A stretch of DNA of 64,000 bases, taken from the NCBI RefSeq assembly GCF_000003815.2, contig NC_049988.1:9989788-10053787 (forward strand). The letters run 5' to 3'. Both the position numbers and the translations under genes were made by a program. Shown one piece after another: positions 2,769 through 46,008 of the stretch (position 1 is its first letter; every line of letters starts with the position of its first letter). A model generated the notes under the pieces. The model did no database searches. It had not been told where the DNA came from and was given only the letters and a program-made list of their open reading frames with translations. This DNA comes from Branchiostoma floridae (lineage: Eukaryota; Chordata; Leptocardii; Amphioxiformes; Branchiostomatidae).

Positions 2769-5700
2769 ATGTTGAAAATTTCAGACTGCAGATTTGTCGT
2801 TGTGGTGGGCCTTATCATGGTCCTACTGTCGTTTGAGCCATGCGGGATGGTTAAAGCACAAGGTAAGCCGTGTCACGTCTGGTTCATCTGATAAAGGTAA
2901 ACGTTAGTGCAGTTCCGTAGTATTTTAGAGGCCATAGGAGCAGTGAGATGTTAGGCACAGTATTGAATGTAGTACCCATCCCTCTCCTTCCACCGCCTTT
3001 ACCTCCCCAACCCAACCGATACTCATTTTTTACCCCTGGGTGGAGTGAAAAGTGAAAAAGTCGTGTTAAGTGCTTTTCCCAGGAACATAATTTGCAACGT
3101 CTAGCCGGTTATCTGATAGCGACATCAAAATAATACCGACATGGTTTGCCAAATATCATCTCAAAAGTTGATGTTCGCTCAGATAGCCAGAAAACAGTTT
3201 ATCAATGTCAAGATAGACTTCGCTTCAGACCTGGACGAATTGGCTGTTATTGGTTGTCTTTACTTGAGTCAATTTGGTCCTATACTGGGAGTTACGGGGA
3301 GATGCCAATGCAATGCACATTCTTAGCTGTAGTCTTAGTCATTTCAATCATACTGTATTAAACAAATCTTGTATCGTTAAGCCGGCAAATGGGTAATTTA
3401 GTTATACATGTCTGAAATCAAAATTCAACATTAAAGACTGTGTGACTCGTGTCATGTAAGCTCGACCTCCACGAAAAGCGGCCTAGCAGGCCGATGGAGT
3501 ATTTATCGAGTCAAAATAAAGGCACAAACAAACAAACAAACTCCTGCGGACGGCGTAGGTACAGCATTGCACATGTGTGAGATTTTGTATCAACCGTTTG
3601 ATCTAGACATCCTAGTTGTAATGTGTGACGGAATGAACTACTTACTATTAGACGAAAATGAATATCAAGGACATCAAATATAGTTAGATTTGAGCATTGG
3701 TTCGGATAGGTGTTTTTAATGAACACGACAATGTAGGGCGGGGCCAAGTATGGTTTGATAGATAGGGGAGTGTACATTATTTGTCAAGACCCTCATGACA
3801 TATGTGGAGGGGACATGAAGCGTTTTCTTCTGTGACATTTTCATGCTCGTTTTCGGCTTCCTGTATTCTTCTTCTAACTGATAGTGATTGGCATCATATC
3901 AAATGTAAATTGGCTTTGCACTGAGAAATTCTGTTAGTTTGAACTCTAGTATATGTATTCTATGTACGGGTATACTTGTTTACCAACAGGATAGATTTAT
4001 GTGTAAAAAGCGGTGGCAATCGTCTCTTGTCACTGATTTTTGAAAAGTTAGGCGTTTGGATGCACTCTCTTGCAACAGCGTCTTCTACTGATCGCCAACG
4101 GAAGTGCATGGTCCCACATGCTTGCTGTTTGACGACTCCATGTTTATAGCAGGGGTTAGGTCAACTTTGTATGGCAATCAATGGAGCTTATGAAAGGCAT
4201 TGTACAATTTTAGTGAAATGGGAAAACTACATCATTCGTCTTGTCTATAAAAAGATGACAGTTATATTCAACTTTTAAATTACTAAACTTTTCTGTTTTC
4301 AGGAATGACCACGGCGACGACGGTCCCAACGACGCTGCATGTAACAACAGCAGCACAGACCACGATTCCAACGACACGACATGTAACAACAGCAGCACAG
4401 ACAACGATTCCAACAACACGGCATGTTACAACAGCAGCACAGACCACGATTCCAACAACACGGCATGTAACAACAGCAGCACAGACAACGATTCCAACGA
4501 CGCGGCATGTAACAACAGCAGCACAGACCACGATTCCAACGACTGTGAATCCTACAACCCACTTGACCACGATTTCAACAACAGAACTAACAACTCAGCA
4601 GTCGACTCAACAGACCACGAAACAAACTACTCAAGAAACTACTGAAGAGACGACAGAACAAACAACGATCCCAACAACTATTGTGCCAACGACACTGATT
4701 ACAACGGTTCAACCAACAACGCAGGTTACTACGGAGAAGACAACGCCTATAGAGACCACGAAACAAACAACTCGGCAGTCGACCCTACTGACTACTGAAA
4801 AAACAACGATTCCAACAACTGTTTTACCAACGACACTGATTACAACGGTTCAACCAACAACGCAGGTTACTACGGAGAAGACAACACAGCCGACTACTGC
4901 AAAAAGTACACAAGATACTACGAAACAAACAACGAGGCAATCTACATTACTGACTACGGAACTGACTACTCAAGATACTACAAAACAAACGACTCGGCAA
5001 TCAACCCTACTGACTACTGAAAAAACAACGATCCCAACAACTGTCTCACCAACGACACTGATTACAACGGTTCAACCAACAACGCAGGTTACTACGGAAA
5101 AGACAACGCCTATAGAGACCACGAAACAGACAACCAGGCAATCGACTCAACCGACTACCGAAGAAACTACTCAAGATACTACAAAACAGACAACAAGACA
5201 ATCAACACTACTGACTACCAAACTAACTACTCAAGATACTACAAAGCAAACAACGAGGCAATCGACTCAACAGACTACCGAACTGACTACTCAATATACT
5301 ACGAAACAGACAACGAGGCAATCAACCCTACTAACTACTGAAAAAACAACGATCCCAACAACTGTCTCACCAACGACACTGATTACAACGGTTCAACCAA
5401 CAACGCAGGTTACTACGGAGAAGACAACACAGCCGACCACTGCAAAAAGTACACAAGATACAACGAAACAAACAACGAGGCAATCTACATTACTGACTAC
5501 CGAACTGACTACTCAAGATACTACAACGCAAACAACGAGGCAATCGACACTACTGACAACTGGGCAAACTACTAGTCTGACTACTGAACAAACAACAGAA
5601 CAAACAACGCTCCCAACAACTTTTTCGCCAACGACACTGATTACAACTGTTCAACCAACAACGCTTCGTACCACAGAGGTCACAACAGAGATGACAACGC

Positions 5701-8333
5701 CTCTAGAGACAACGGAGAGGACAACGCAACCAACCACTGAGAAAACTACGGATGAGACCACGGAACTAACAACTGGGCAGTCAACCCTACTGACTACTGT
5801 ACAAACTACACTTCCGACTAGTGCAGAGACGACAGAACAAACAACTCGGCAATCAACCCTACTGACTACTCAACAAACTACTGTCCCAACTAGTGTAGAG
5901 ACAACAGGACAAACAACGTTACCAACAACTTTTGATCCAACGACACAACCGATTACAACGGCTCCTCCAACAACGCCGTTCACTACCGAGCAAACTACAC
6001 GTCCGACTAGTGTAGAGACAACAGGACAAACAACGTTACCAACAACTTTTGATCCAACGACACAACCGATTACAACGGCTCCTCCAACAACGCCGTTCAC
6101 TACCGAGCAAACTACACGTCCGACTAGTGTAGAGACAACAGAACAAACAACGTTACCAACAACTTTTGATCCAACGACACAACCGATTACAACAGTTCAA
6201 CCAACAACGCAGCTTACAACGGAGAAGACAACAATACCACCGACTACGCCTATAAAGACCACCAAGAAAACGACACAGTTGACCACCGAAAGGACTACAG
6301 ACGAGACCACAGAACTTACAACTCGGCAATCTACCCTGCTGACTACTGTACAAACTACACGTCCGATTAGTGTTGAGACAACAGAACAAACAACGTTACC
6401 AACAACTTTTGTTCCAACTACACAACCGATTACAACGGCTCCACCAACAACCCCATTCACTACGGAACAAACTACAAGGCCAACCACTAAAGAGACGACT
6501 GTTGTCGGTACTACTGAGGGGACCACAGCACCAACAACTGTTGAAACTACAAAACAAACAACTCGGCAATCTACCGAACAAACTACACGTCCGACAAGTG
6601 TAGAGACAACAGAACAAACAACGTTACCACTAACTTTTGTTCCAACTACACAACCGATTACAACGGCTCCACCAACAACCCCATTCACTACGGAACAAAC
6701 TACAAGGCCAACCACTAAAGAGACGACTGTTGTCGGTACTACTGAGGGGACCACAGCACCAACAACTGTTGAAACTACAAAACAAACAACTCGGCAATCT
6801 ACAGAACAAACTACACGTCCGACAAGTGTAGAAACAACAGAACAAACAACGTTGCCAACAACTTTTGATCCAACGACACAACCGATTACAACGGCTCCTC
6901 CAACAACGCCGTTCACTACCGAACAAACTACACGTCCGACTAGTGTTGAGACGACAGAGCAAACAACGATCCCAACAACTCTTGATCCAACAACACTGAT
7001 TACAACGGTTCAACCAACAACGCAGCTCACAACGGAGAAGACAACAATACCACCGACTACGCCTATAGAGACTACCAAGAGAACGACACAGTTGACCACT
7101 GAAAGGACTACAGACGAGACCACAGAACCAACAACTCGACAATCGACGATACTGCCTACTCAACAAACTACACGTCCGACTAGTGTAGAGACGACAGAAC
7201 AAACAACGCTCCCAACAACTTTTGTTCCAACTACACAACCGATTACAACGGTTCCTCCAACAACCGCGTTCACTACGGAACAAACTACAAGGCCAACCAC
7301 TGTGGAGACGACAGTTGCCGGTACTACTGAGGGGACCACAGCGCCAACAACTGTTGAAACTACAAAACAAACAACTCAGCAATCGACCCTGCTGACTACT
7401 GTACAAACTACACGTCCGACTAGTGTAGATACGACAGAGCAAACAACGCTCCCAACAACTCTTGATCCAACGACACTGATTACAACGGTTCAACCAACAA
7501 CGCAGCTTACAATGGAGAAGACGGAACCAACGACTCGGCAATCGTCGCTACTGCCTACAGAACAAACTACACGTCCGACTAGTGTTGAGACGACAGAACA
7601 AACAACGCTCCCAACAACTTTTGTTCCAACGACACAACCGATTACAACGGCTCCACCTACAACCCTTTTCACTACGGAACAAACTACATATTCCACTAGT
7701 GTAGTGACAACAGAACAAACAACGATCCCAACGACTTATGATCCAACGACACAACCGATTACAACGGCTCCACCAACAACCGCAGAGACCACAGGTCGAT
7801 CAACAGAACCTACTACGGCCTTGACAACAAGTAATCGTACAACCTACATAAGTACGGTCCTTTCAACAATCTTCCCAACGAGCCTACCTTCGACGCTTCT
7901 CCCAACCCTGTTCACTACGCAAGGAACTACAAGGCCAACTACTGACGAGACGACACTAGAGACGACAGTTGTCGGTACTTCTGAGGGGACCACAGCGCCA
8001 ACAACTATTGAAACTACAAAACAAACAACTCTGCAATCAAGTTTTCCTACAACGTACTTTACAACAATCCCTACAACAGCGAGCTTCACTACTCCGAAAG
8101 TCACAACGGTTGTACCAACGACGCATGTCACAACGATGCCACCGCTGTTAACCACAGAGCCGGGTACCACAGTAGAGACAACGCCTGTAGATGCCACAGA
8201 AAGGACAACACAGCCGACCACTGAGAGGACTACAGTCACCACTGTTCGCACGAGCGTTGTAACCTCCCAACCACCATCGACAGGTAGTACACAAACGGGT
8301 GACTTTCAGGATAGACCACGTGATCACTACTAG
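2769..8333 (+). CDS. Secreted Thr-rich mucin-like protein, two exons
   Basis: Exon 1 (2769-2862) codes for 31 residues: MLKISDC, a hydrophobic core VVVVGLIMVLL, then a small-residue region, a typical secretory signal peptide. It ends at AAG|GTAAGC in phase 1. Exon 2 begins at 4303 after TTCTGTTTTCAG, completes a Gly codon and continues without a break to TAG at 8331-8333, giving about 1374 residues. Nearly all of exon 2 is TT separated by two or three residues, with Pro, Gln, Glu, Val and Ile, and no Cys. It is built from nested tandem repeats of 42, 117 and 228 bp. No folded domain or membrane span is visible. The likely product is an O-glycosylated secreted mucin (inference from composition). 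A CAG|GTAGTA donor after 8283, conserved with the left-edge paralogue, could splice out the last 16 codons in favour of exons further right, so the C-terminus is uncertain. Confidence 0.8.
3455..3541 (+). repeat. LINE-like 3' tail in mucin intron 1
   Basis: A GC-rich hairpin (GCGGCCTAGCAGGCCG) is followed by AATAAAGG and a short ACAA repeat. This is the usual look of 5'-truncated LINE 3' ends that carry microsatellite tails. No reverse-transcriptase coding sequence is seen upstream. Confidence 0.35.
4317..4526 (+). repeat. 42-bp coding tandem repeat, 5 units
   Basis: One unit TTVPTTLHVTTAAQ is followed by four units TTIPTTRHVTTAAQ at exact 42-bp spacing, at the N-terminal side of the mucin-like repeat domain. 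Units differ mainly at synonymous sites. Confidence 0.9.
5891..6241 (+). repeat. 117-bp coding tandem repeat, about 3 units
   Basis: The TAGTGTAGAGACAACAG word recurs at 5891, 6008 and 6125, exactly 117 bp (39 codons) apart. The unit codes for SVETT-QTTLPTTFDP-TTQPITTAPP-TTPFTTEQTTRPT. The third unit diverges in its second half. Variants of the same unit recur singly up to about 7790. Confidence 0.85.
6393..6848 (+). repeat. 228-bp higher-order repeat, 2 units
   Basis: ACGTTACC/ACGTTGCC recurs at 6393, 6621 and 6849, a spacing of 228 bp (76 codons). The unit joins the 39-codon module to a KETTVVGTTEGTTAPT block, showing recent unequal exchange inside the exon. The two full units are nearly identical. 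Confidence 0.85.
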
Positions 8334-19380: not shown

Positions 19381-20635
19381 GTATGTTAACAAGTCTAAGG
19401 TTCGTGTTTTCAAGTGATTTTATTCTACCTTAGAGATAAACGTAGGGACCGTAAGCTTGGGGACCGCAATGCTCTATCACTGTGTTGTCGTGGTTACTGA
19501 AAACCATTGCCACACATTCAGGACCTTGCCGCAACCTACCTCCCGACAAATAACGCCCGACCAAGGTCGACACTGAGTTTGGAGTAGCCTGAAATCCATA
19601 CTGTCCTAGCTCCAGTTCGGTCACTGATCTAATTGCTGTCAAGCAGAATATGACTCTCATGAGTTAAGTTTGTCAAAGCCTATGGTCGGACTCGTGCCGA
19701 CGACTTTCAAAGACTTGTAGGCAACCTCGCCGACCAACTCCCAACCACAGATGACGTTGCACACAACTAACTCCCAACCATGCTCTGGAGAAAAGGCCAT
19801 GGTTGGCTACATGTACGTGTAACAGGGTTTTAGATGGCCAAGGCTTTCCAGTCCCGGTAAGGTACGTTTCCGCCATTTAACATATTTGTCCCGTTGGCCT
19901 GCTCTATCGTAAGCTTATTCTGTGTAGGGTCTTTTCAGTTCATGTTAATACCTCATGTATTGGCGATTTGAAAGGCTTTTATACAATGGAAAGATTTGCG
20001 CACAAATTGTACATCGATCAAATCTCTGTATCCGTAAAGCAGCATAAAGGATGTGTAATAATTCTCCATGCCCAGCACTGCTCGCCCATATTAGAAAGGT
20101 GTGTGTTTGTGCAACATTCACGATCATTACCTGTTATAAACGTGGTCCTGCATATCATAACACAGTCAAATGATACAATTTCAGCACGACTTAGGCGTAG
20201 AGGGATCGCACATTTGCTCCCTAGCTTCACACCAACGGATTCTTCTACTAAATTCAGCAATATTTATCGGCTGTACATCTTGCCTGCATGCGATACGATA
20301 GTCATATATGACAAATCCCTCCATCTAGTATGTAGGAATCCTAGACCCGTAAGTAGATAAGATAAACCTGTTCCATAATTTCAATGTCACTGCTGTTAGG
20401 GGTTGTGTTCGGGTCGATTGAGGCCTGTGACTTTTAACCTTGTAAGTCACAGTTGTACATGTATCAAATGCATGTCAAACATGTGTGAGGTCCCTCAAAA
20501 GTCGCTAGCTATTGCAAAAGGCAAGATATTCTACGCATTGCTCGAGTTCAGGCAGTGCTAAAGATTTATTTTTGTCGTGCATCTGAATTCGTATTTGCTA
20601 AAGAATTAGCTGCCTTCTCAAGTCGTGTGTCTCAG
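19381..20635. other. Non-coding or unassigned stretch
   Basis: An open frame crosses 19968-20360. Part of it (20185-20348) lies between an acceptor-like TTTCAG and a donor-like GTAAGT and would accept phase 1, but it has no recognisable domain. Confidence 0.3.
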
Positions 20636-20772
20636 AACTTGCCATGCGTTCATGGGAATAGCGGCGAATCCGGTGGCCTCAGCCGGTATTTGGGGCGACA
20701 CAGATTGGCTGATAGCTGATAGGTAGGTCTGCTGCTGCAGCCGATTATGTGTATGTATATAAAGTGTGTGTC

Positions 20773-20824
<52 letters not shown>

Positions 20825-21574
20825 TGCGTGTGTGTGTGTGTCTATCTCTCTCTATCTCTCTGTATGTGTATATAGGTTATGTGTCTATGAACACGATAAC
20901 CCGAGAAGGCTTAATCTTAACTAAGTGTTCAAAACTTCTCAGAATAATCAAGATGGACTCTTAGAGGTTTGCTATATGGTACGGTCACTAGATTACAGTG
21001 GTAGTAGATCTTGTTCTGTATAATTCAACAGTGCCTGTAAAAATGAAAGGCAAGCTTAAAGCGGAACCTAGCTACGTTGCAAGTTGGCCTTATGATGATC
21101 TCAGTCTGAGGACTGGAGTACTGTAAATGCAGAAATGTTCGCGGTGCATGTTCGCTGTTTTCGCGGTGACCACTTCACCGCGAACCTAGAACCACCGCGA
21201 ACATTTTTCTATTATTGTATTAGACTGCAGTCTATGGTGTTACCGCAAATTTAAATCCACCGTGAAAAGTCCTTTTACCCGCTACCGCGAAATTAAATCC
21301 CCGCGAACTTAGATGCATTTACAGTAACTGATTGACACTTATCTATTTCAGAGACGGTCAGTTTCCGGTGGCTCTAACGTCTGTAGATGTCCTCGGCACC
21401 GTTGACTTAGCTAACCTCCAAAACAGGCATGGGGCTTTTCTTCTGATGGCATATCAATTCTATCGCATGCACTCTGCTTTTAGAGCACTCGGTTTCTTGA
21501 ATGGCCGAGCCTCTACAAATACAACTATAAAACAGAGTTCAAAAGAAACAGAACCGATTTGTCATCAGAAATAG
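20636..21574 (+). CDS. Speculative two-exon reading, unrecognised
   Basis: 20636-20722 (87 nt, after GTGTGTCTCAG and before GTAGGT) reads open as TCHAFMGIAANPVASAGIWG and on to LIAD, entering and leaving in phase 2. The stretch starting at 21352 after CTATTTCAG continues in that phase as DGQFPVALTSVDVLGTVDLA to a stop at 21572-21574. The intervening 629 bp hold a GT microsatellite and a MITE. No domain is recognised, and in-phase matches of this kind arise by chance. Confidence 0.15.
20764..20842. repeat. (GT)n microsatellite
   Basis: A long GT run with a few C interruptions, followed by CTAT/CTCT repeats to about 20862. Confidence 0.95.
21119..21326. mobile_element. TIR element, CTGTAAATGCAG family, copy 1
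   Basis: TA-CTGTAAATGC at the left and GCATTTACAG-TA at the right are inverted. The body carries repeated TTCGCGGT / ACCGCGAA words and CTGCAGTCTATGGTGTTACCGC. The same words occur in reverse at 48009-48222 and in decayed form at 37605-37803. Confidence 0.85.
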
Positions 21575-22168
21575 AGCCTGATAAGGAGGGTATACCTAGC
21601 TTGGGATCCAAATCTACTATAGCTGCTCCAAATCTAATTTGTCTTCCGTGCATAGGCTTGTATACATGGCTGCTCTTGCCCGTATGGATTTTTTTGTGGG
21701 CTAATTGGAAGTAACGAAGCTATGATACTTAATAAGTAGTATATAAAGGTCTATAAAACTTACTACTTTAAAGTTATAATGGTTCCCTATTCTCAGTGTA
21801 TCATCGCGACGTTTTAGCTGAACAAAAAAGACATCGTAACAACTTCGGTCGCATTACGTATATATCCAGGTAAATTGCGCAAAACACGCATTTTTCTCGG
21901 AAGGGATTTCCAACTGTACCATCCTTTGCAGACAGGCGGCACTCCGGCACAAGAACCGAGCGCTGTTAGATGTCTTCGAAGGAGGCTAATTCCTGGCCAT
22001 CTTGTAAGTTTGTAGATAAACCCAGACCCTACCTCCTTGTCAACACTCTGGAACAGAGACAAGAGCTGAGAGGACCACGTAACACAGTTATTTCAAGGAC
22101 ACCCGTGCATGGCCACTACCCCATAGCCAATCATCGCCCTTCAATTACTGTGTTTATATCCCCATAGT

Positions 22169-22283
22169 GCAGACAAGTGTGATACTATGAAAAAAGTGTG
22201 GTACTATGAACTGATTTACATAAAATAGGGCCACACTTTTTCATAGTACAACACATTTTTCATAGTACAACACTCATTTCTGC
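22169..22283. mobile_element. Short TIR element with doubled arm words
   Basis: GCAGACAAGTGTGATACTATG and then AAGTGTGGTACTATGA at the left are mirrored by TCATAGTACAACAC, given twice, and CATTTCTGC at the right. Each arm contains the same 16-bp word twice. The centre is about 30 bp. Confidence 0.6.
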
Positions 22284-25200
22284 ACCCCTTGTGGGCGGAG
22301 CAGCCCTATTTCCCATGTAGAAGGTTTCGTCCCATGTTCTAAATTTTACATAGGGCAGCCTATATAGCTTGGATAACAGTGCGGTGGTCATTAAACCAAC
22401 CTGTGAACCCACCAGCAGTGCCCCGGACACACTGTATATAGGTCTGCTACCGGTTTATGGCCTAATTCAATCTCCATCTTTAGTCATTTCCCTCCGCATA
22501 TCTGCCTCGCCCCCAGAAGTATCCTAGAAACTCGGCCAGCGTGTTGCAGTCACCCGTCACTAATATCGGGGTCACGGGGTCAAATCATTACATCTCTGCG
22601 CCGAGAAGGACCGCTCTATCATTGAGCGTATGTGGCCAAGCTGCAACTAGAAATTGTGCCAACTGCATGGACGCTGGCCATGTTTACGTCTTTTACTGCG
22701 ATCATCTGCTGTGTTGTATAACTTCCAACAGTGAGGATAGGGTTCAAATAGGGCTCCTTACTACCGCTGTGGTCGTTTGAGTTGGACCCTTACTGACTTG
22801 AGGTATGTTGTGCTCTGTTTCCCCATGCTGGATATGTCCCCTGTGACTGGTTTTATCGTACTTCAACTAACCGTTAAAATTTCACACGCGTTGAGTATTC
22901 TAGAGTTTTAGGCAAGTACGTACTATAACGTGACTTTATAATACATCTCTTATATTTCACCATACGTGTGCACTTGTATCATTACAATATTTTCAGATGT
23001 AGATTCAGTCATCTCAACTTTTAGGGAAGAGGGAGAGAGTAGTGGGGGATTACTTTTCTAATCCTTGCAAAACGTTGCTGCACAGTTAACCCCTTTGTAT
23101 AATACTGTACAGATTTAGAAAAGGAGACTGTGTCTGTTTTCTCTACTAGTAAGCACCCCCCCCCCCCATCCCGTGCTGCATCTCAATGATGATAGATGGC
23201 TTTGTCATTTGTCATGACTACAGAGCTATAGTAGTCCTACTGAGGTATCCAACCGTAAAGATAACACATGCTGGGGCCGGCCTTTGTGGACACGTTCACT
23301 TTCATTCACTGTCAATGATAAGCATATGATTTATGATTCCCGTCTCGTATGTGTACATGTGCCATGTCACAGCTGTACCTAGGTCCTCACGAAACTACAT
23401 ATGATAAAATTGTTGTCTTTTAGATTCTTTTGCAAGGACAAGGTCGTGCGTGTATTCAGTGTGTGTGTGCGGGGGGGGGGGGGGCATCTCTAGATCTCTC
23501 TACTCTACATCCACTAGTTTTGGAAAGGGACAAACATTTAGAGTTCTATGGTTGTTTTCTATCATCACATAGATGTTCCAATGGTGTGGAATATTCATAA
23601 TTCAACAGGTGTTCAACACATTTCGCCTGGATTTGACTACGGCACCCTAATGCGTCCGATGTGTGCTGGCATGAGTTGCCCTACAAAATATCTCAAATCT
23701 CAAAACGCCAGTCTTAAGCCAGTTAAGGAGATATTGCAGATCAAGTGGCACATTATTGGTTCGTCTGGGGCAACGTTTTATACCATAGTTTTACAGGGCA
23801 TCTGTGCTCGTTATCATTTAATAACGTGGAAAAGTTCGACCTGCTATGAGTTATCCTCTTAACACCTTAAAATTCCAGGTTTAGCGAGTAATTGGAGATC
23901 AAAAGCCATGTTATAAGTTCGTCTGGAGCAACTTTATCATTGTCGTTGGAGGGCATCTGTGCTCGTTATCATTTTATAGATGTTCTGTCCTCAGACGAAC
24001 CCATGATATCCCTCCTACTCTCACCGAAAGCCAGTCTCTGTCATCACTAAGTAGCGTTGTTGGGTGGAATGCCCACAACATTTGGCCAAGCACAAAGCTA
24101 GTGAAGGTCTTGGACTGCTCTCAAGTCTTTTCTGTACTTCTCTCAAAATAAGGTAATTTGTTCCAGCTGTAAGATCACCTGAGGGTCAGGAGAGGAATTA
24201 TCACCTTAAATGGTCCCAGAGGAAGCAGTAGTCTTAAGCGGATTCATTCCATGTGGCCTGTTTTATATGGACTCTTCCACTGTTTATCAGCGTTATGAAA
24301 TTAATGAAAGTTTATTGCGAATTCTTGCGCGTGGGTTAATTAATTCCTGGTAACAAACGAGTGAATATGATATAGCAAGTGTCTACTACAGTCACAAAAC
24401 TAACTCTAGATTTTGGGTTATTTCATGGGTTAGACTTATTTTCCGAAGACAGTGAAAGACGAATGATCCCACCTTGTATATGTGGGTTTTGTGATGTTAG
24501 AAGGAGCACTGCTTTTGTCAGTGAACGTGGAGAAATTTTGGTGACATACATTATATTTGCCTAGTGTGTGTGAGTACGATAACTTGAGAATGCCTGGATG
24601 GATGGTCTTTAATATTTGGTGTGTTCCTAGGTCATGATGAAACCTCGTTTCTAAAATAAAGTTTACAAACGTCGTTCACGAAATCTTATGTCTCGGAATT
24701 GATATTCGAATGAAGCATTTTTTACCTCTTCACTTTTCCCGGGCTAGGATTTTGATCAACATTAAGGCCTAGTATTAAAGACTAGTGGTTACAACTGAAC
24801 CCGATGTTCACTGGGCTGTATGAAAGGTCGTGTGAGAAGTCGTCCGGTTGAGTTAGACACAAATGACAGACAATATGGAGCTTTGTGAAGCCGCTATTGT
24901 ATGTATCTGGCTTGTTCGACATGAAAGGCTTCAAGGATTAAGATACGAACCACATGTGATGAAGAATTAATCTTACTAACAATGGCGAGGTTCCACATCC
25001 CAAGTGCCATTTCTATTCGTATTGTACTTCTTCCAGTGGAGATTACAAGCATCTTATTTGTGTCACCTTTCCGTATATAGTCTTCTCCCCTTGTGTAAAT
25101 ACATTATTCGTGTCATGTATCATGTAATTTGTGACGCCGTGAGTCAACGGCTTACAATGTAGAACACACGTATGGACTAAGATTTTGATTTGATTATACT

Positions 25201-25417
25201 TTGGAATTTCCTTCAGATGAAGAAATATGCTAAATGTGGGGGACAAAAGGGAGGAAGAGCATTCCTTGTCCATAAATGTCGTTCTCAGGTGGTAGTAGGT
25301 TACCTTCCCCCAGGCAGATACTGAAATGCATATATGGTAGATTCTGACATTTTTCTGTTGTATTCTCACATAACGTTACTTGTCCCCACTGTGGTTGTGT
25401 AAGGCGCAGCTTTGTTG

Positions 25418-25460
25418 TTTGGTTTGTTTGTTTGTTAGTTTGTTTGTTTGTTTGTTTGGT
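25418..25460. repeat. (GTTT)n microsatellite
   Basis: Tandem GTTT units with one interruption (TTAG). Confidence 0.9.
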
Positions 25461-25825
25461 GAACCTTTGTTCATTCATGAAAGCTGAAATCGGCCCACAG
25501 ACCACTTTTTATTAAGTCATGAGGGAAGAGGTAAGTGTCAGACAAAATATCATACAGAGTGCAGAGTTACAGTTTACATCGTTTAAAGTCCTATTAAGTC
25601 TATGTTCATATGATATTTTACGCATGGTGCAAAATACATATTAGTGAGTTTAGTGGTCTGTGTTGACACATCACTCCAGCGTTGCCATAGCGACTAAAAC
25701 AGTACTTCCGTGTCCCATTCTTTGCCTACTCTACGAGGTAGGCACCCCTGTTGTGAGCTACTGGGTAAGTGGTACAAAATGACTACAAGGTATTATCCTT
25801 TTTAACCCGTTTGAGACATAGCTAG

Positions 25826-25985
25826 TCGAGCAGATCCTACGGTAGCATAAGATAGTATCAAAAGCTGCCAGAGGAGTGAAGCCGGCCTAGGGGTGTGTTT
25901 CTCTATCGGAGTGGCTGATGACTCCCTTTGGCCAGCTATCACTCCGTTGCCACTTTTGATACTGGCTCATGCCACTGGTAAATTA
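25826..25985. mobile_element. TIR element, CCAAGCAGA family (decayed ends)
   Basis: GAGCAGATCCTACGGTAGCA, GATAGTATCAAAAGCTG and GGAGTGAAGCCGGCC at the left are mirrored by GGCCAGCTATCACTCC, CACTTTTGATACTGGC and ATGCCACTGGTAAA at the right. The outermost CTCCAAG word is mutated on both sides. Confidence 0.6.
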
Positions 25986-26359
25986 GGCGTGCCTTCAAGA
26001 CAACCGCTTTCCATATCTAGAAACATTTGTGTATTTGTCAGCAACAGTCAACAAATTGCAACAGAGTGCTTCTCTTTCGTATGTGTGCGGTGTTTGTGCA
26101 AGGACGTTATATCACTTGGTTTGTGTGAGGTTTTTTTCCAAGGTATGACAGAATACAAGGAAGCTCATATCGATGGGGAAGAAGATTACCTTTAATGACA
26201 TCATTTATAACGATGTAGTTCCGGGTAATTACCAACATGATTACGCGCCCCCTGAGTGACCTGACCTCATTTCGCAGAAAAGGAACAATTTGCTTTGCGG
26301 ATTAAGTCTCTTGGGTCTCCTTCGCTGGATCGTCAAAAATCGTTAGGGCTTAATCCGAC
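25986..26359. other. Non-coding stretch
   Basis: No supported exon or repeat. Confidence 0.4.
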
Positions 26360-26369
26360 GTTTGACAGT

Positions 26370-26834
26370 TGTCTCCAAGCAGACCCTGCGGTGCCTTAAA
26401 GATAGTATCAAAGCTGGTCAAGAAGTATAGCCGAGATTAAGTATGTATTGAGATTATTCTTGTTTACAATTTACCATTAATTTACACTGATGTTACTTTT
26501 CTTATGTAAACGATACTACCTTATACTGCTGTATTAGTTTATTTGGTTGGTATTATTTTCTTCCCGCTGTAGTATTGTTATCTATTTTTGGATCCGTGGT
26601 TTATGTTTATGTTTTGTCTCAGTTATTGTCTCCATCTCTATTGTCATTATGTATTCTTCTGTTATTTCTGTTTATTTGAAATGCAATAAATATTAAAAAA
26701 AAAAAGAAGTATAGCCGGTAAAATGGAATCAAACGGACACCGGAGGTCTGACGGCCCTCCTCTTGCCGGCCATAACTCCTTGTCCGGCTTTTGTACTATC
26801 CTATATATGCCACCGGGAATCTGCTTGGAGATAG
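26370..26834. mobile_element. TIR element, CCAAGCAGA family, carrying a nested insertion
   Basis: The ends TGTCTCCAAGCAGA and TCTGCTTGGAGATA are inverted, and the element is flanked by the 10-bp direct repeat GTTTGACAGT (26360-26369 and 26835-26844). Without the insertion at 26434-26703 and its duplicated target, the element would be about 180 bp, like its relatives at 25826 and 49833. Confidence 0.8.
26434..26703 (+). mobile_element. 5'-truncated retro-insertion with poly(A) tail inside a TIR element
   Basis: It is flanked by the 14-bp direct repeat AAGAAGTATAGCCG (26420-26433 and 26704-26717). It is T-rich, has AATAAA at 26685-26690 and ends in a run of A, which are the marks of target-primed reverse transcription. 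The body has no coding frame and is best read as the 3' untranslated end of a LINE. Confidence 0.8.
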
Positions 26835-26922
26835 GTTTGACAGTACAGTGATAGTCTAGATGCCAGACTGTTACCAGGGCTACACACGCCTATTACACAA
26901 TCCTACCACAGTAACCCCCTTA

Positions 26923-27024
26923 AACACACACACACACACACACAAAACACACACACACACAATCACACATACACACATAACCACAGAGAGAGAGAGAGGC
27001 AGACAGACAGACAGACAGACAGAC
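26923..27024. repeat. (CA)n and (CAGA)n microsatellites
   Basis: CA runs at 26923-26961, then GA and CAGA units at 26984-27024. Confidence 0.95.
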
Positions 27025-27780
27025 ATATGCAAGTATCAGTTTTCTAAGTACTGTTACCTGGTTTCTAGTAGACGCACGGCCATCATGCCTGTTTGGAGGC
27101 AAGGATACAGGCCGGTCTTACGACAGCTAACTTCAGGATAGACTTGCGTTATACAAAACTGAAATATATGTGACGCAAGTCCTTGACGGCGAGAGGTTTG
27201 TCGCACAACTGCAAGGGGCTTTCGCCTTTGTGAAATCGTCCTGTTCGTCAATAGTATATTCAAGAACTTTCGGCAACCTTCAATCGTTGTAAGATGCCAT
27301 ATACATAGATATAAGCATATGTATAATCATAACAACTATATAACATAGCGTGCGATATTTTGCTACATTGACACTTATAATAATCACAGACACTGGAAGT
27401 GAGAGAGACGGAAATCGATAGCTCATGACGTCACTTGCTGAGGATTGCCAACGTTATCAGTGAGTTAATCACGTCAACCCTGGTTTTGTCACGCCAGGCA
27501 ATTGTGTTATATGGTTACCTGTCACACACCAAACGCCTGAACACACACTTAGATATTTATCTTCAAACGGGTCCGTTATAGGATTACTTATCCGGTCTGT
27601 CATCAGATTTGCCGCTAGGACGGCTAAAAGGTTTGCGGACAGACGCGTTTCCATCGTGGTAAGATCGTAAACGGTTCTTAGGCTACTCGTGCGTGAGTCG
27701 TCAAACTTCAACTGTCTTTTTGCCGAATAATGTTGACCTACATTCTTGTTGGTGGTCGGTTAGGTCACAACCTTCTTGGA
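27025..27780. other. Upstream flank of the RAMP-like gene
   Basis: A minus-strand open frame at 27469-27711 shows no recognisable domain. No TATA box was identified. The promoter of the RAMP-like gene should lie in or near this interval. Confidence 0.35.
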
Positions 27781-27833
27781 AATTCTTCGACATCAAAATC
27801 CAACGACGGTTTGCTACGAATGTGACCGCAACG
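27781..27833 (+). other. Candidate 5' untranslated exon of the RAMP-like gene
   Basis: CGCAACG|GTAAGTC at 27834 is a strong donor, and TGTTCTGCTCTGTAG at 27954-27968 is a strong acceptor, leaving a 135-bp intron before the coding first exon. The 5' border given is arbitrary. This is inferred from splice sites only. Confidence 0.35.
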
Positions 27834-27996
27834 GTAAGTCAAGAATAGACACCGAATAGACACTGCTAACATCCACGGCCACTAAAACAGTAGCTTTTAC
27901 ATACGCCATGGCTTCTAGTTGATTACAATATTGATAGAATGTGTGTTATCTGCTGTTCTGCTCTGTAGGTGAGAGACAGAAGCATCTAGGCGGAAA

Positions 27997-28029
27997 ATGA
28001 CTGCAGGAAGATGGCGTCCACACGAGTGA
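27997..28029 (+). promoter_or_regulatory. Upstream ORF overlapping the RAMP-like start codon
   Basis: ATG at 27997 opens a 10-codon frame (MTAGRWRPHE) ending in TGA at 28027-28029, overlapping the main ATG at 28011 in another frame. If the 5' untranslated exon model is right, this could lower translation of the main frame. Confidence 0.4.
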
Positions 28030-31000
28030 CGGTGTTATCTTGCACGTTCGGTAAGTTGTGTCTTTCTCATCTGTTGATGTTCTGTGTATCATGTACGGAT
28101 TTCTGATTATGTATTACGTTATCTTTGATCCCATGTTATTTTAAGAAATGTGTGTTCTTTAATTGCGTCTATAGTTTTCTACTAATCTCGGTATAAGAAA
28201 TGCAACAAGTTACAACACGGGCACGTCTTACTACTTACTACTATTATATTTTGTAGCTGCAAGTTAAATGCATTTTGATAGGAACTGTATGCCTTTAAAC
28301 TCAGTAATGTTTAGATGTCTGTAGCTAATGATGATATGGTGATAAAATGACAAAATATACATGAAGGAAAAAGGTAAAGTAGATTTTTCAATTGAAACTA
28401 GCCATCAGCAGCTCTGTCGAAAAGGCCTGTCATAAAATACAAAATTTATGTGCCAGGGTTATTTTTATAAAGGGCAAACTAAGCTAACATGGGCATCAAG
28501 GTTTTCTTGACTAACTGTAAAATAATTGACCCATTAATACTTCTCTGTTGATATGTTATGTCCGTAGGTGTTAAGTAGTATTCTGTTCAGAATTAAGTCT
28601 TCGCTTTATCTATGTGTGCCAACAGAGCTTCACCAAATTTGACAAATCTTACAATGCTACAGTGATCTACATGTTCAAAGATGTAAATGAGCTAGAGAAT
28701 CTGTGTCTATCTAGAAAAAAGAAGGTGCCAAATGATCTATTACTAAAGCCTCAGCGTGAGTCCATACTGTTTGTCATTTATCATTGCGTGATGCCGCTAA
28801 ATTGTCCAAGTTTACTAACAGGGTGTCATCACTAGCACACCGCGAATCATCGGACACTCCACAGATCAGCTCAGAACCAGGGTTCGCATAAAGGTCAGGG
28901 AGCGCAGGAAAACGGTTTCATCCATTAGAATTAATGCTGATCTCATAGTTTATTAGCGTATCCCTGCGTTGCTAAAATCTGTAGTCGAACAATGCACGCA
29001 AATGTGCATGCAACACTACAACAGTAACATTGATTTTGATAGATTACGTTCATTCTTTAGAAACAAAGCATGGAAAAATGGATTGCTTTTGTTTCTTAAA
29101 GAAAGTCGATTTCTATACAGTCAAGGTGGGTTTGTGATCCCCCTGCTTTGTCTGATAATCTTCGCCATCGGTTGGCTACCAGACTCCGGCCTGGCCGAAT
29201 AGTAAAAAGGGACTTTTACCAAGTTAGGAATATAAGTTTAGTAGGAGTTAATTGGCCCAGGAGTGAACTGAGCAGATAGCTGGATAGTCTGCAAAAGACT
29301 GAAATCCCATGGCAACTTATTTGTCCCTATATGGCCAAACTCTTCCCTTTTTATCCAGCCAGCTGACACGTCTACTTGGAGCCTCTAGATAGAGAGATGA
29401 TAGTAGACACAAGGAAAGTGTGAACATGTTTTACGAAAATTCATGCCTACCGAGACCTCACAAATTGACGATGAATTGTAGAAATCTAGACTCAACCTGG
29501 CTCCAACCGGAGCTTTATAGATGTCAGTTCTAAGAGGACCGATCGTGAAACTGGGTGAGTGGTCTTCAAAAGAGTCAGCCGGCCAAAGAAAATCGGGCTT
29601 CAGGAATTTCTTCTGGTTGGCTTACCCCTTTTTGGCAAATTGTTCATCCAGTTTGGGGGACTTCAACTATAGATTCAGCCCCGAAATGAATCCTGCACAG
29701 AATACTCCGTCTTGTTCCGACACAAACCCGAGATGTTCATGACTAATTCGGCCTCATATCCATTCAAAACTGCCGGGTACATGGATAAGGAAAGTCTTGC
29801 CCATTGCCAAGGGTACACGGTTCTAAGTCATGGAAAAGATGGACCATTAAATATGCAACTTCTTAGAAGCAAAAGGAATGGTAAGTTGCGTGACAGCGCA
29901 AATAGCTTTGTTTATTTGTTTTCTGTCCCTACCTAGCTTTTGGTGTATATGACGAATATGGTGAAAACAAGACCACAAAGGGAAGTAATAAGACCACAAA
30001 GTCCACAAAGGAAAGTAATTAGAAAGGGATGTTTTTGACAGCGTAAATGCCTTTATTTATTTGTTTTCTGTCTCTACGTAACGCTTGGTGTGACGAATGT
30101 TGAAAACAAGACCACAAAGGGAAGTAATAAGAATGGGGATGTTTCTGTTTACGATTTTTGACATACTATGTCACCACGGTAATCTTCTTCACTAAGGCAG
30201 TGTTTACAAGGTCTATCCCTGACCCTAAACACTTTGATAAGCACCTACTTGGGCAAAACGCTTGGGGTATTTGTCTGCATTGCTCCTACTTTTCTAGTGT
30301 TCTTGTCAAATTTAAGAAATACCTTTTTGGTCCTGTAGTGGAATGAAGCTTTCTGAGTGAGATTCTTAAAATACCTATATTCCGCAGGGCAGAATTGATT
30401 TTGAAATCCTATTCAACCGTAGAGACTAGAGGTTGACATGTTGATAAAGTTACGCGTATGCCGCACGCTGTGTATATATATATACATGAAGTCCTGTGTT
30501 CTGTTTTCTATCTTTGTCACAACGGTTTAGAAGCAGGTGGTGAGTTCAAAGCCTTCACTGAGCTGGGGTGTTTCTCATCTTTCAACCGCTACAATTAATA
30601 TGACATCTTTACTATGTAAATTGAAATTGACATTACAATTAAGGCATCACAGTAATTGAATGAACTCTTGAGGCTTGAAGACATTCCAGTTTCATGAGAA
30701 GTTATTACTGTAACAGTTCCTTTGAGTCGCTTAACGCAATATCTAAGTAGGTAGAGTTCGTGGACTTACAGCCGGGTAGGTCGTGAGTTTTATCCCAGGC
30801 CGAGTCATGCCACCAAAGACTTGGTACATGCTCTTTTCTCTGCTTATCTCTCAACGTTAGGTATCTAAACCAATGATAAATGTTGAGTCTCTTTGTCTCG
30901 GCATCTATAAAAGGTTTGGATACTTGGTATCAACATTTCGGAAAGAGTATCAGTCGATCACACGGACCACTGCCGACTCGTCCTCTTAAACCCAGAATGA

Positions 31001-32771
31001 CGTTACGTATACTCTCACGACGGTTGTTTCCATTTGGAAGGCTTCCGTCTAGAGCGAAGTTGAGAGATTAAAACTGCTGCCCCAGAATTCACTCCGCCAC
31101 ATTCTGCAGTACTATTAACCTGTGCACTGATACTGAACGGACACACGAGACTACAGATCAGCTGGAGGCACATTTACAGACTAGTCAGGACTTATACTTG
31201 CACACAAACAAGACATCTAACACTTCTGGGTCATATTCTTAAGAATTCTCGTAAGGCCTACGTCACATGTCCAAACCGGTGCCCGGTACCGTCGGACAGC
31301 TTTCGGAAACGAAAAGTGATATAGATACGTCAAACAACACAATACGTAAAGAAAATAGTGGTGGGCATTATTTGTGTATATTTTAAGAATACATTTGTAT
31401 TTTTCCTTTCCACAAGCAGCCCGGCCGGGCCCCGGTTTGGAAATGCGACGTTAGCCTTAGAAAATATATTGTCCCACAATTTAGAGCGCCACAAATGTTT
31501 TGGCATAAGGACGCAGATGGGGAAACGACGTAGATTGAAGATGTCTGTGCTTGTCTTTGGTATCGGTGCACTTGATTTACACGTGATCATAGCCATGGCA
31601 TCAGATTGCTCTATCTAAAGTATAGGCGTGACATGTCATTAGAAGATAACACTCATCTTCAATACGATCTCCACAGTGATGCTCCAGTTACTGTTGGCGG
31701 CGGGTCTGTGTCCGGATATGCAGACGTACGACAGTTGGATGGCCTGGTGTGAGGACGAGTTTACCTACTCAGTCAACATCTCTTACATATGTGACTGGAC
31801 ACAGACTATAGAGTGAGTTTCCACGGTCTATTTCTTTCCTAGTTAAGTAGCCAGGTGCTTCCGTTCCAGCTTCCAAATGACGGATAGGTGTATTTAGAAA
31901 CCGGGACAAAGGCTGTACACGACTGGATTTCAAACAAATGTATTTCTCCCTTGCACTCTGCATATTCTCTGTGTCAAGCCAGCTCTAACAGACTAAAGGT
32001 GGGTTCACACGGTCGTATACATTCAATTTGTATAGGGTCCGTATGGAAGTCTTAGCCCACACCAGGCTCCACAGGTCGCTGCAAAGATGATAGAATTTGG
32101 ACAACTATCGACAGATAACGTGCCAGACGAGTTAGCTGGGTCACAAATCATACTACTCGGCCAGTTAACTTCTCTGGCGTATTATGCGTCTATGTTTGTC
32201 CAATTTGTACTATTTTACTAGCGACCTGTGGAGCATGGTAGAGGCTAAGACTTCCATACGGACCTCATGCCGACTTGAATATATACGCACGTGTGAACCC
32301 ACCTTAACAAATGTGTGACCGCTTTTTGAAGACTTGGGAATGTTGATTCACAGTTTTCCTCTCTGAAAACGAAGAAGGTTGACAATTCTTTGTAAGTCAC
32401 TTTTTATTAAGCCATCGTTTTCAAAGTCTAGTCAGTACGTATATGTTTCTCTCGGTGCATGCTCCATATCTATTGATATATCTATTACACTTTATAAACA
32501 CATCCTGTTTATGTTTTACTCCAGACCGTACAGTCGAGTCACCAAGTGCGCAGAGGCCGTGTCGCTGACTCTGAACTGCACCGACAGGAGGCGCTTGTTC
32601 GACGTGTTCATGTTGGACCTGCACAGACGTTTCTTCGCGAACTGCACTCCTCTCCAGGAGCCTGATTTTGACGCGCCAGACGACGTCTTCGCCGCCGCGG
32701 TGGCCATTCCGACCATCCTGGTGTGGGTCGCCGTGTTTGCTTGGACCTACTGGAACGCGAATAAAAGATGA
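28011..32771 (+). CDS. RAMP: Receptor activity-modifying protein (RAMP)-like, three coding exons
   Basis: Exons 28011-28050, 31677-31812 and 32525-32771 join in frame (intron phases 1 and 2, all GT-AG) into 140 residues. Residues 1-24 form a signal peptide (core VMLQLLLAAGL). The ectodomain has Cys25, 38, 52, 67, 77 and 99, matching the six-cysteine RAMP pattern, with CDWTQTIEPYSRVTKC (52-67) aligning to the CDW-RTI-Y-L-C stretch of vertebrate RAMPs and FDVFMLDLHRRFFANC (84-99) to their F-HGRYFRSC stretch. N-X-S/T sites are N47, N76 and N98. Residues 113-135 form one membrane span with the internal Pro (VAIPTILVW) typical of the family, then the short tail NANKR. RAMPs escort class B calcitonin/CGRP-type receptors and change ligand choice; that partner is inferred from the family. 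The length is close to the usual 148-175. Intron 1 holds a TIR element at 31252-31459 and intron 2 one at 31996-32305. Confidence 0.9.
29885..30147. repeat. Local direct duplication in RAMP-like intron 1
   Basis: TTTATTTGTTTTCTGTC and then GAAAACAAGACCACAAAGGG, AAGTAATAAGA and GGATGTTT occur twice (about 29890-30035 and 30036-30147) with small differences. Confidence 0.75.
31252..31459. mobile_element. TIR element, CCCGGCCGGGC family, copy 1
   Basis: TA-AGGCCTACGTCACATGTCC at the left mirrors GGTTTGGAAATGCGACGTTA then GCCT-TA at the right. Sub-terminal GGGCCCCGG / CCGGTGCCCGG blocks are shared with the copies at 40207, 43907 and 63449. It is 208 bp, TA-flanked and non-coding, and ends 217 bp before RAMP-like exon 2. 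Confidence 0.8.
31996..32305. mobile_element. TIR element in RAMP-like intron 2, Harbinger-like
   Basis: AAGGTGGGTTCACACG at the left mirrors CGTGTGAACCCACCTT at the right, and inner arms (TCCGTATGGAAGTCTTAGCC; CCACAGGTCGC) pair as well. A TAA on each side could be a 3-bp target duplication as made by PIF/Harbinger elements (inference). There is no transposase. Confidence 0.75.
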
Positions 32772-44112: not shown

Positions 44113-45400
44113 GCAATATCATCATGATGATCAAACTATCTTACTGTTATTGATAACATCCTCTAGATTGATATCATTTTACTCCAAACATGTAAAGAGA
44201 GATGGAAAAAAACGGAACTGGTTTAGAAGAATGCATGAGTTTTCCGAATAACAAATGTTATAGTAAACATCAAATGCAAAGAACATTTTTATTGACAGTC
44301 AGTTATTCGTTTCTTTTGCTTGAGGGGCATTGAGACAACAACAAAAACACCTGTAAAAGTTTTGTAGGCTACATAAAAGTGTTTTCCTTTTGTATATCTG
44401 TTGCCTGACGACTTTTCGACTTCTGACAACTTCTACTGGGGGAGAACACTCCTTTGTATTGTCGTACATTCTTCAAGAGAAAGAGCCTTTCACAAATATG
44501 TCAACACGGATGCACACTGCGAGTATCGACCATAGACTGGAGAGTGCCATGCCTCGTTAGCGCGCAATAGCTGACAAGTCCCGGTCTCTGGCGTTGTGGC
44601 ACGTACGGCAAAGTTTATTTTTAACCCGTGACCTTGGTGACCCCTGTAACGCTTGACTCCCCCCAGACGTCAATCAAACACAATAGACGGCTTACCTGTG
44701 GATCAAAGGTGAATGCGAGGTGGAGGCTAAAAGTTCCGACGTTATTACTAAACTGTTTATGCATTTGTCCAGTACCTAGCGCCTTTGTAATCTTGTTTAC
44801 TTAAAAGATCATAGTTGTGTTTTGATGAGGGGTCGTATAAAAGGCTAGCATTATGTTTAAGCGGCTTCCTCATATTTGTGTATGTATTGTATTGTATAAA
44901 TCCAAGGTAAATCCATCTTGACATAACAATGTTCACTCATGACTGGACATGTATTTCTGACACCGCCCGTGAAGGCGGGACCCCTGAAAGTCAAATATAG
45001 GCTAGCACAATGGGAGGTTTGTAAATAACAGAAGACTGTGACAGGGCGGGTATCTATCATGATGATTTCAGTGGCTATAGGCGGGGCACTACTGTATGTA
45101 AATGTAGAAGTGAGAACCTCATCATTCTGTTGGTTTATCCAATGACCTTGGTGTTTTTTTTCAATGAACTCGCCACTCAGACGGTTAACACGTGTTTGTG
45201 TGTTTGTGCAATGTTTCTGTGCATGTTCACTAAGCTCGGTTGTAACTCATATCTGACTACTCAAGCGCACGTGTCTCAGGTATCTAGAAATGTCTGGAGA
45301 TGGACATCTTATTGTTCTGATAGATAAGGATCAACATTCCAACTCAGGTATTTTACCGTCGGCTACGTGATGGGGAAGGGAGCGGTGAAGGTAATTACAG
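44113..45400. other. Non-coding stretch without recognised genes
   Basis: No supported exon or repeat. Confidence 0.4.
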
Positions 45401-46008
45401 GGCCTGATAGTACATACCAGTCACCATCATCATCGTCTCAACAGGCAAACACAATGGGCATTAGAACTATTATAGAGGACAACAACACAACAATTAGTCG
45501 GCTTGCTACATTTTATCTGTGGTTCTTAAAGATTATTGAAAGATTAAACTTGGGCCTGATAGTACATACCAGTCACCATCATCATCGTCTCAACAGGCAA
45601 ACACAATGGGCATTAGAACTGTTATAGAGGACAACAACACAACAATTAGTCGGCTTGCTACATTTTATCTGTGGTTCTTAAAGATTATTGAAAGATTAAA
45701 CTTGGGCCTGATAGTACATACCAGTCACCATCATCATCGTCTCAACAGGCAAACACAATGGGCATTAGAACTGTTATAGAGGACAACAACACAACAATTA
45801 GTCGGCTTGCTACATTTTATCTGTGGTTCTTAAAGATTATTGAAAGATTAAACTTGGGCCTGATAGTACATACCAGTCACCATCATCATCGTCTCAACAG
45901 GCAAACACAATGGGCATTAGAACTGTTATAGAGGACAACAACACAACAATTAGTCGGCTTGCTACATTTTATCTGTGGTTCTTATAGATAACTCAAAGAT
46001 TAAACTTC
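45401..46008. repeat. 152-bp tandem repeat, 4 units
   Basis: GGCCTGATAGTACATACCAG starts units at 45401, 45553, 45705 and 45857. Units 1-3 are almost identical and the last unit differs only near its end (CTTATAGATAACTC). The unit includes CACCATCATCATCG and AACAACACAACAATTAGTCG. Short open frames inside are by-products. Confidence 0.95.

Follow-up and report, generated by a model that had tools for sequence, protein, structure and literature searches.

Receptor activity-modifying proteins (RAMPs) in related animals carry hormone receptors of the calcitonin/CGRP type to the cell surface. Positions 28011..32771 of the window, the 64,000-nucleotide stretch of Branchiostoma floridae DNA analysed here (contig C10:9989788-10053787), raise the question of whether three small exons form a gene of this family, and what its product would do in the lancelet. 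We conclude, with a probability of about 0.93, that 28011..32771 is a lancelet RAMP gene whose product likely escorts a CTR/CLR-type receptor and helps to set its peptide preference. The family to which the gene belongs is a known one, and both this family and its function have already been described in lancelets.

The three exons join in consistent phases into 423 nt encoding 140 amino acids plus a stop, exactly at the coordinates proposed by the sequence-only reading. The splicing predicted from the DNA uses GT/AG at four of four ends (TCG/GTAAGT, TCCACAG/TG, AGA/GTGAGT and CTCCAG/A, the slash marking the boundary). That reading had also warned that simple ORF calling would miss the first two exons, and exon 3 alone of the three lies within an ORF of at least 120 aa. 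Exon 2 was also matched when the genome (513.4 Mb in 431 contigs) was searched with the 140-residue protein as the query. Within intron 2, window positions 31996-32305 hold nested inverted repeats resembling a small foldback mobile element (31996-32026 with 32275-32305, 90%; 32036-32139 with 32161-32264, 78%). A short upstream ATG frame from window position 27997, out of frame with the gene, overlaps the proposed start codon at 28011.

Table. Features of the proposed gene (window positions) and genome-wide matches to the RAMP family (contig positions).
Feature	Position	Strand	Description
Exon 1, coding part	28011..28050	+	start codon and first half of the predicted signal peptide, phase 1 end; predicted from the reading frame and GTAAGT donor
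Intron 1	28051..31676	+	3626 bases, phase 1, GT/AG ends
Exon 2	31677..31812	+	remainder of the predicted signal peptide, ectodomain cysteines 1-3, CDWTQTI
Intron 2	31813..32524	+	712 bases, phase 2, GT/AG ends
Exon 3	32525..32771	+	cysteines 4-6 of the ectodomain, the one membrane span, the five-residue tail and the stop codon; E=1.3e-11 with Pfam RAMP when searched by itself
RAMP matches	C10:10022307 (28011..32771 gene), 10063606, 10093766, 12910772	+	Pfam RAMP

Against the Pfam RAMP profile (PF04901) the spliced product scores 59.9 bits, with a cut-off of 27 (E=2.9e-16), residues 38-130 aligning to positions 4-99 of 110, and the family call made from the letters is thereby upheld; exon 2 alone gave no match to Pfam. 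When the product was compared by phmmer with the chains of solved structures, RAMP3 (4e-8), RAMP2 (2.7e-7) and RAMP1 (2.3e-6) were retrieved, and the first non-RAMP match had E=0.12. The marks on which the call had been based are all present, namely six ectodomain cysteines (residues 25, 38, 52, 67, 77 and 99), the CDW-T-TI and F-FANC blocks (here CDWTQTI and RFFANC), a Pro-containing span and the five-residue tail NANKR. A seventh cysteine, Cys11, sits in the putative signal region. Judged by hydrophobicity, the membrane span is the top 19-residue stretch, VFAAAVAIPTILVWVAVFA, which lies near the C end, has a mean of 2.47, contains one Pro and is preceded by a D-A-P-D stretch. There are three N-X-S/T sites, one of them followed by Pro.

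Vertebrate RAMP1 and RAMP3 have six ectodomain cysteines. Cysteines 3-6 of the lancelet product align with the human RAMP segments, as do the CDW/CNL, F-C and D-P stretches of RAMP1 and RAMP3, with which it also shares a Pro-containing span. The identity over the aligned segments is, however, 22-26%, which makes the earlier label of a divergent RAMP a fair one, and the human rows stand apart in a small, poorly resolved tree. RAMP2 shares the CDW and FANC blocks, whereas its aligned segment lacks cysteine 5, which the lancelet product has. The part of PMC6283891 available to us gives four conserved cysteines for the vertebrate RAMPs. The other five lancelet copies that were modelled lie similarly far from the human segments (16-28%).

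Exon 1 is the least secure part of the gene model; its frame, Kozak context and donor are support for it rather than proof. Candidates were required to begin with ATG, to end in phase 1 and to carry a donor with at least 7 of 9 consensus positions within window positions 20001-31660. Thirteen candidates pass this donor filter, and 28011..28050 is the sole one with a purine at -3 plus a G at +4. The candidate signal region that it would open is a hydrophobic stretch with a mean of 2.29 over 11 residues. A second scan, which covered 9 kb, placed this exon second of six by hydrophobicity. It is nevertheless unlikely that the RAMP gene is real and its exon 1 wrong, the start lying in another upstream exon or at the in-frame ATG at 31679 and giving a different signal peptide. 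Such a start could draw on the 12 further phase-1 candidates, two of them slightly more hydrophobic (2.40), or on the ATG with which exon 2 itself opens (MLQLLLAAGL), whereas only the proposed exon combines the two favourable Kozak positions.

The relatives also speak against a different start. An AG acceptor fits in phase 1 at the first ectodomain exon in six of six modelled lancelet loci, at places chosen by eye, and since it does so at the matching exon in five relatives, an upstream coding exon is to be expected. Signal-like first-exon candidates lie upstream of the 9972k, 10086k and 10091k genes on the same contig, and that of the 10091k gene is of like shape (MLDIEAYQLAIALLSV, with a GTAAGT donor). 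The 10060k gene has a first-exon candidate too, but one without a purine at -3, and the upstream scan of the 12909k gene gave no convincing signal-like first exon.

With the proposed first exon in place, the product would work as follows. The signal peptide would direct it into the secretory pathway and would probably be cleaved, the ectodomain would fold and be held by disulphides, and the one membrane span with its very short tail would serve as the anchor. The product would most likely pair in the ER with the CTR/CLR-type receptor of the animal, bring this receptor to the surface and help to set which calcitonin-type peptides the complex prefers. The source study for three B. floridae RAMP-like proteins, Bf-RAMP-LP1, -2 and -3, is reportedly that of Sekiguchi et al. 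2016. In the portion of PMC6283891 available to us, these three are described as cloned and as escorting the CTR/CLR receptor Bf-CTFP-R; they carry it to the surface of COS-7 cells, and the potency order of the peptides depends on which one is present. That escort in COS-7 cells is a feature of the clones. Going by the partial description in the same source, they resemble the 28011..32771 product in their membrane span, conserved cysteines and low similarity to human RAMPs; the product, known here from DNA, may be one of the three.

The genome contains candidate partners, in keeping with the calcitonin/CGRP-type accessory system that the sequence-only reading had inferred for this animal. The hormone-receptor domain (HRM) has at least 16 matches, 12 on C10, three on C18 and one on C15, all counts being lower bounds; C10 makes up 23.9 of the 513.4 Mb. 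The HRM exon at C10:8538437-8538547 has the calcitonin receptor as its best solved match (3.6e-14); CLR reaches 3.3e-13, and the glucagon receptor is clearly weaker (3.6e-8). From this exon it is 265 kb to the seventh RAMP-type exon described below and about 1.5 Mb to the 28011..32771 gene. Comparison with solved structures covered three of the 16 HRM exons, of which this one alone was calcitonin-type; the other 13 were judged by eye or not resolved, so that the single CTR/CLR exon is a lower bound. On C4, two calcitonin-family Pfam matches score weakly (E=0.09 and 0.99), and their peptide exons read ...KCESGTCVQMHLADRLRLGLGHNMFTNTGPESPGRKKR and ...CKTAWCMNNRLSHNLSSLDNPTDTGVGAPGRKRR; both show a Cys loop, and their Pro-Gly-basic ends would yield a Pro-amide.

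These HRM counts bear on another possibility, that the product is a RAMP by descent and has as its partner a class B receptor other than the CTR/CLR type. The presence of 12 of 16 hormone-receptor-domain matches on the contig of the RAMP gene speaks for it; however, each of the three B. floridae RAMP-like proteins functioned with the CTR/CLR receptor in the account accessible in PMC6283891, and we regard a different partner as improbable. The accessible part of PMC3961327 describes linkage between class B receptors and Hox clusters in vertebrates, a nematode and a beetle. A Hox linkage of the RAMP contig was considered and rejected: homeobox matches run densest on C16, and two of the 135 fall on C10.

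A CTR/CLR escort remains the preferred reading. The gene has several relatives on its contig. The genome-wide Pfam RAMP search gave four matches at E<=0.001, all on the plus strand of C10, and exon 3 of the 28011..32771 gene is the top one (E=1.9e-9). A profile built from our own lancelet models was run on 7133 six-frame ORFs from selected regions (240 kb including 15,785 N, plus 54 kb), which adds loci at C10:9972588 and 10086804. The genome search with the 140-residue protein returned C10:10086855 (E=1.6e-4) and C10:8272992 (E=0.006); the 9972k locus was absent from its results, and a match on C15 (E=2.08) was taken as chance. The last exon of C10:8272992 reaches 25.7 bits with Pfam RAMP, just below the cut-off of 27 (E=1.3e-5). 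The exon 2 filter found its exon in three of five regions and missed those of the 10086k and 12909k genes; exon 2 of these two and of the 9972k gene came from the lancelet-profile ORF search. As judged from sequence, six RAMP-type loci on C10 are well supported and a seventh is likely. Five of them, including the 28011..32771 gene, form an array of about 122 kb (C10:9972488-10094077).

All six modelled lancelet products are recognised by Pfam RAMP at E<=0.01, the best of them at 2.3e-16, and have 13 invariant columns in common; the 28011..32771 product has 25-28% identity with the other five. Their junctions, read by eye, put phase-1 and phase-2 introns at like places in the six loci, the phase-2 intron standing before (x)PY at the same place in the five others as well. 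That the 28011..32771 gene is a decayed or silent member of this tandem array of five, without a working protein, is very improbable, as its three exons are all open, its four splice ends are GT/AG, its six cysteines are kept and it tops the four loci found in the genome-wide family search. In a tree of ten rows the three human sequences separate from the seven lancelet ones (99/97). The branches are long, which drew a program warning about long-branch joining, and of seven inner branches four are open. The split agrees with the statement, in the accessible part of PMC6283891, that the lancelet RAMP-like proteins diverged independently.

In the 9972k gene (C10:9972488-9973194), an additional phase-2 intron seems, by eye, to interrupt the last coding exon downstream of the IHK block. 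The 10091k/10093k gene (C10:10091322-10094077) has two extra upstream exons whose phases fit and whose cysteines are RAMP-like, as though the ectodomain were present twice. A two-domain RAMP at this locus can be kept as a lead only. The two upstream exons, when joined, score with DUF1397 (0.0085; 15.9 bits, cut-off 25.7) and not with RAMP, and with a profile built from six lancelet and three human sequences their score did not rise above the best of 2000 shuffles. DUF1397 itself had no match in the B. floridae genome or in 14 controls, and since the controls were blank as well, this genome search says little.

The modest new point seems to be a RAMP gene set that is larger than the three described and lies together on one contig: three proteins cloned, according to the partial account cited above, compared with seven RAMP-type loci here, one of them below the Pfam cut-off. 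Judged by titles and abstract openings, the literature on lancelet RAMPs yielded none naming more than three. We tentatively suggest, at slightly less than even odds, a reading in which seven or more genes of RAMP type, five of which form one tandem array, share their contig with the single CTR/CLR exon recognised and with 12 of the 16 class B receptor exons, so that ligand diversity would arise mainly via expansion of the accessory protein and less via the receptor; by count, at least four of the seven would lie beyond the three reviewed proteins. According to the accessible part of PMC12638048, neither the echinoderms searched nor protostomes nor Ciona yielded RAMPs, which, within the literature consulted here, would make lancelets the sole invertebrates with RAMPs. 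Independent acquisition in lancelets and vertebrates is one of the scenarios listed in the available portion of PMC6283891, and a full lancelet RAMP count that takes in the introns and the chromosomal neighbours would help in testing it. The full count may also show how one receptor serves several peptides.

Elsewhere in the window, positions 4305-8333 of the plus strand hold a 1342-aa open frame that consists mostly of Thr-rich, mucin-like repeats with nested tandem repeats. Positions 45400-46007 carry four copies of a 152-base tandem repeat with 98% matches, and one of the 123 window ORFs scanned has a match to the HTH domain of the Mos1 transposase (E=1.3e-10).
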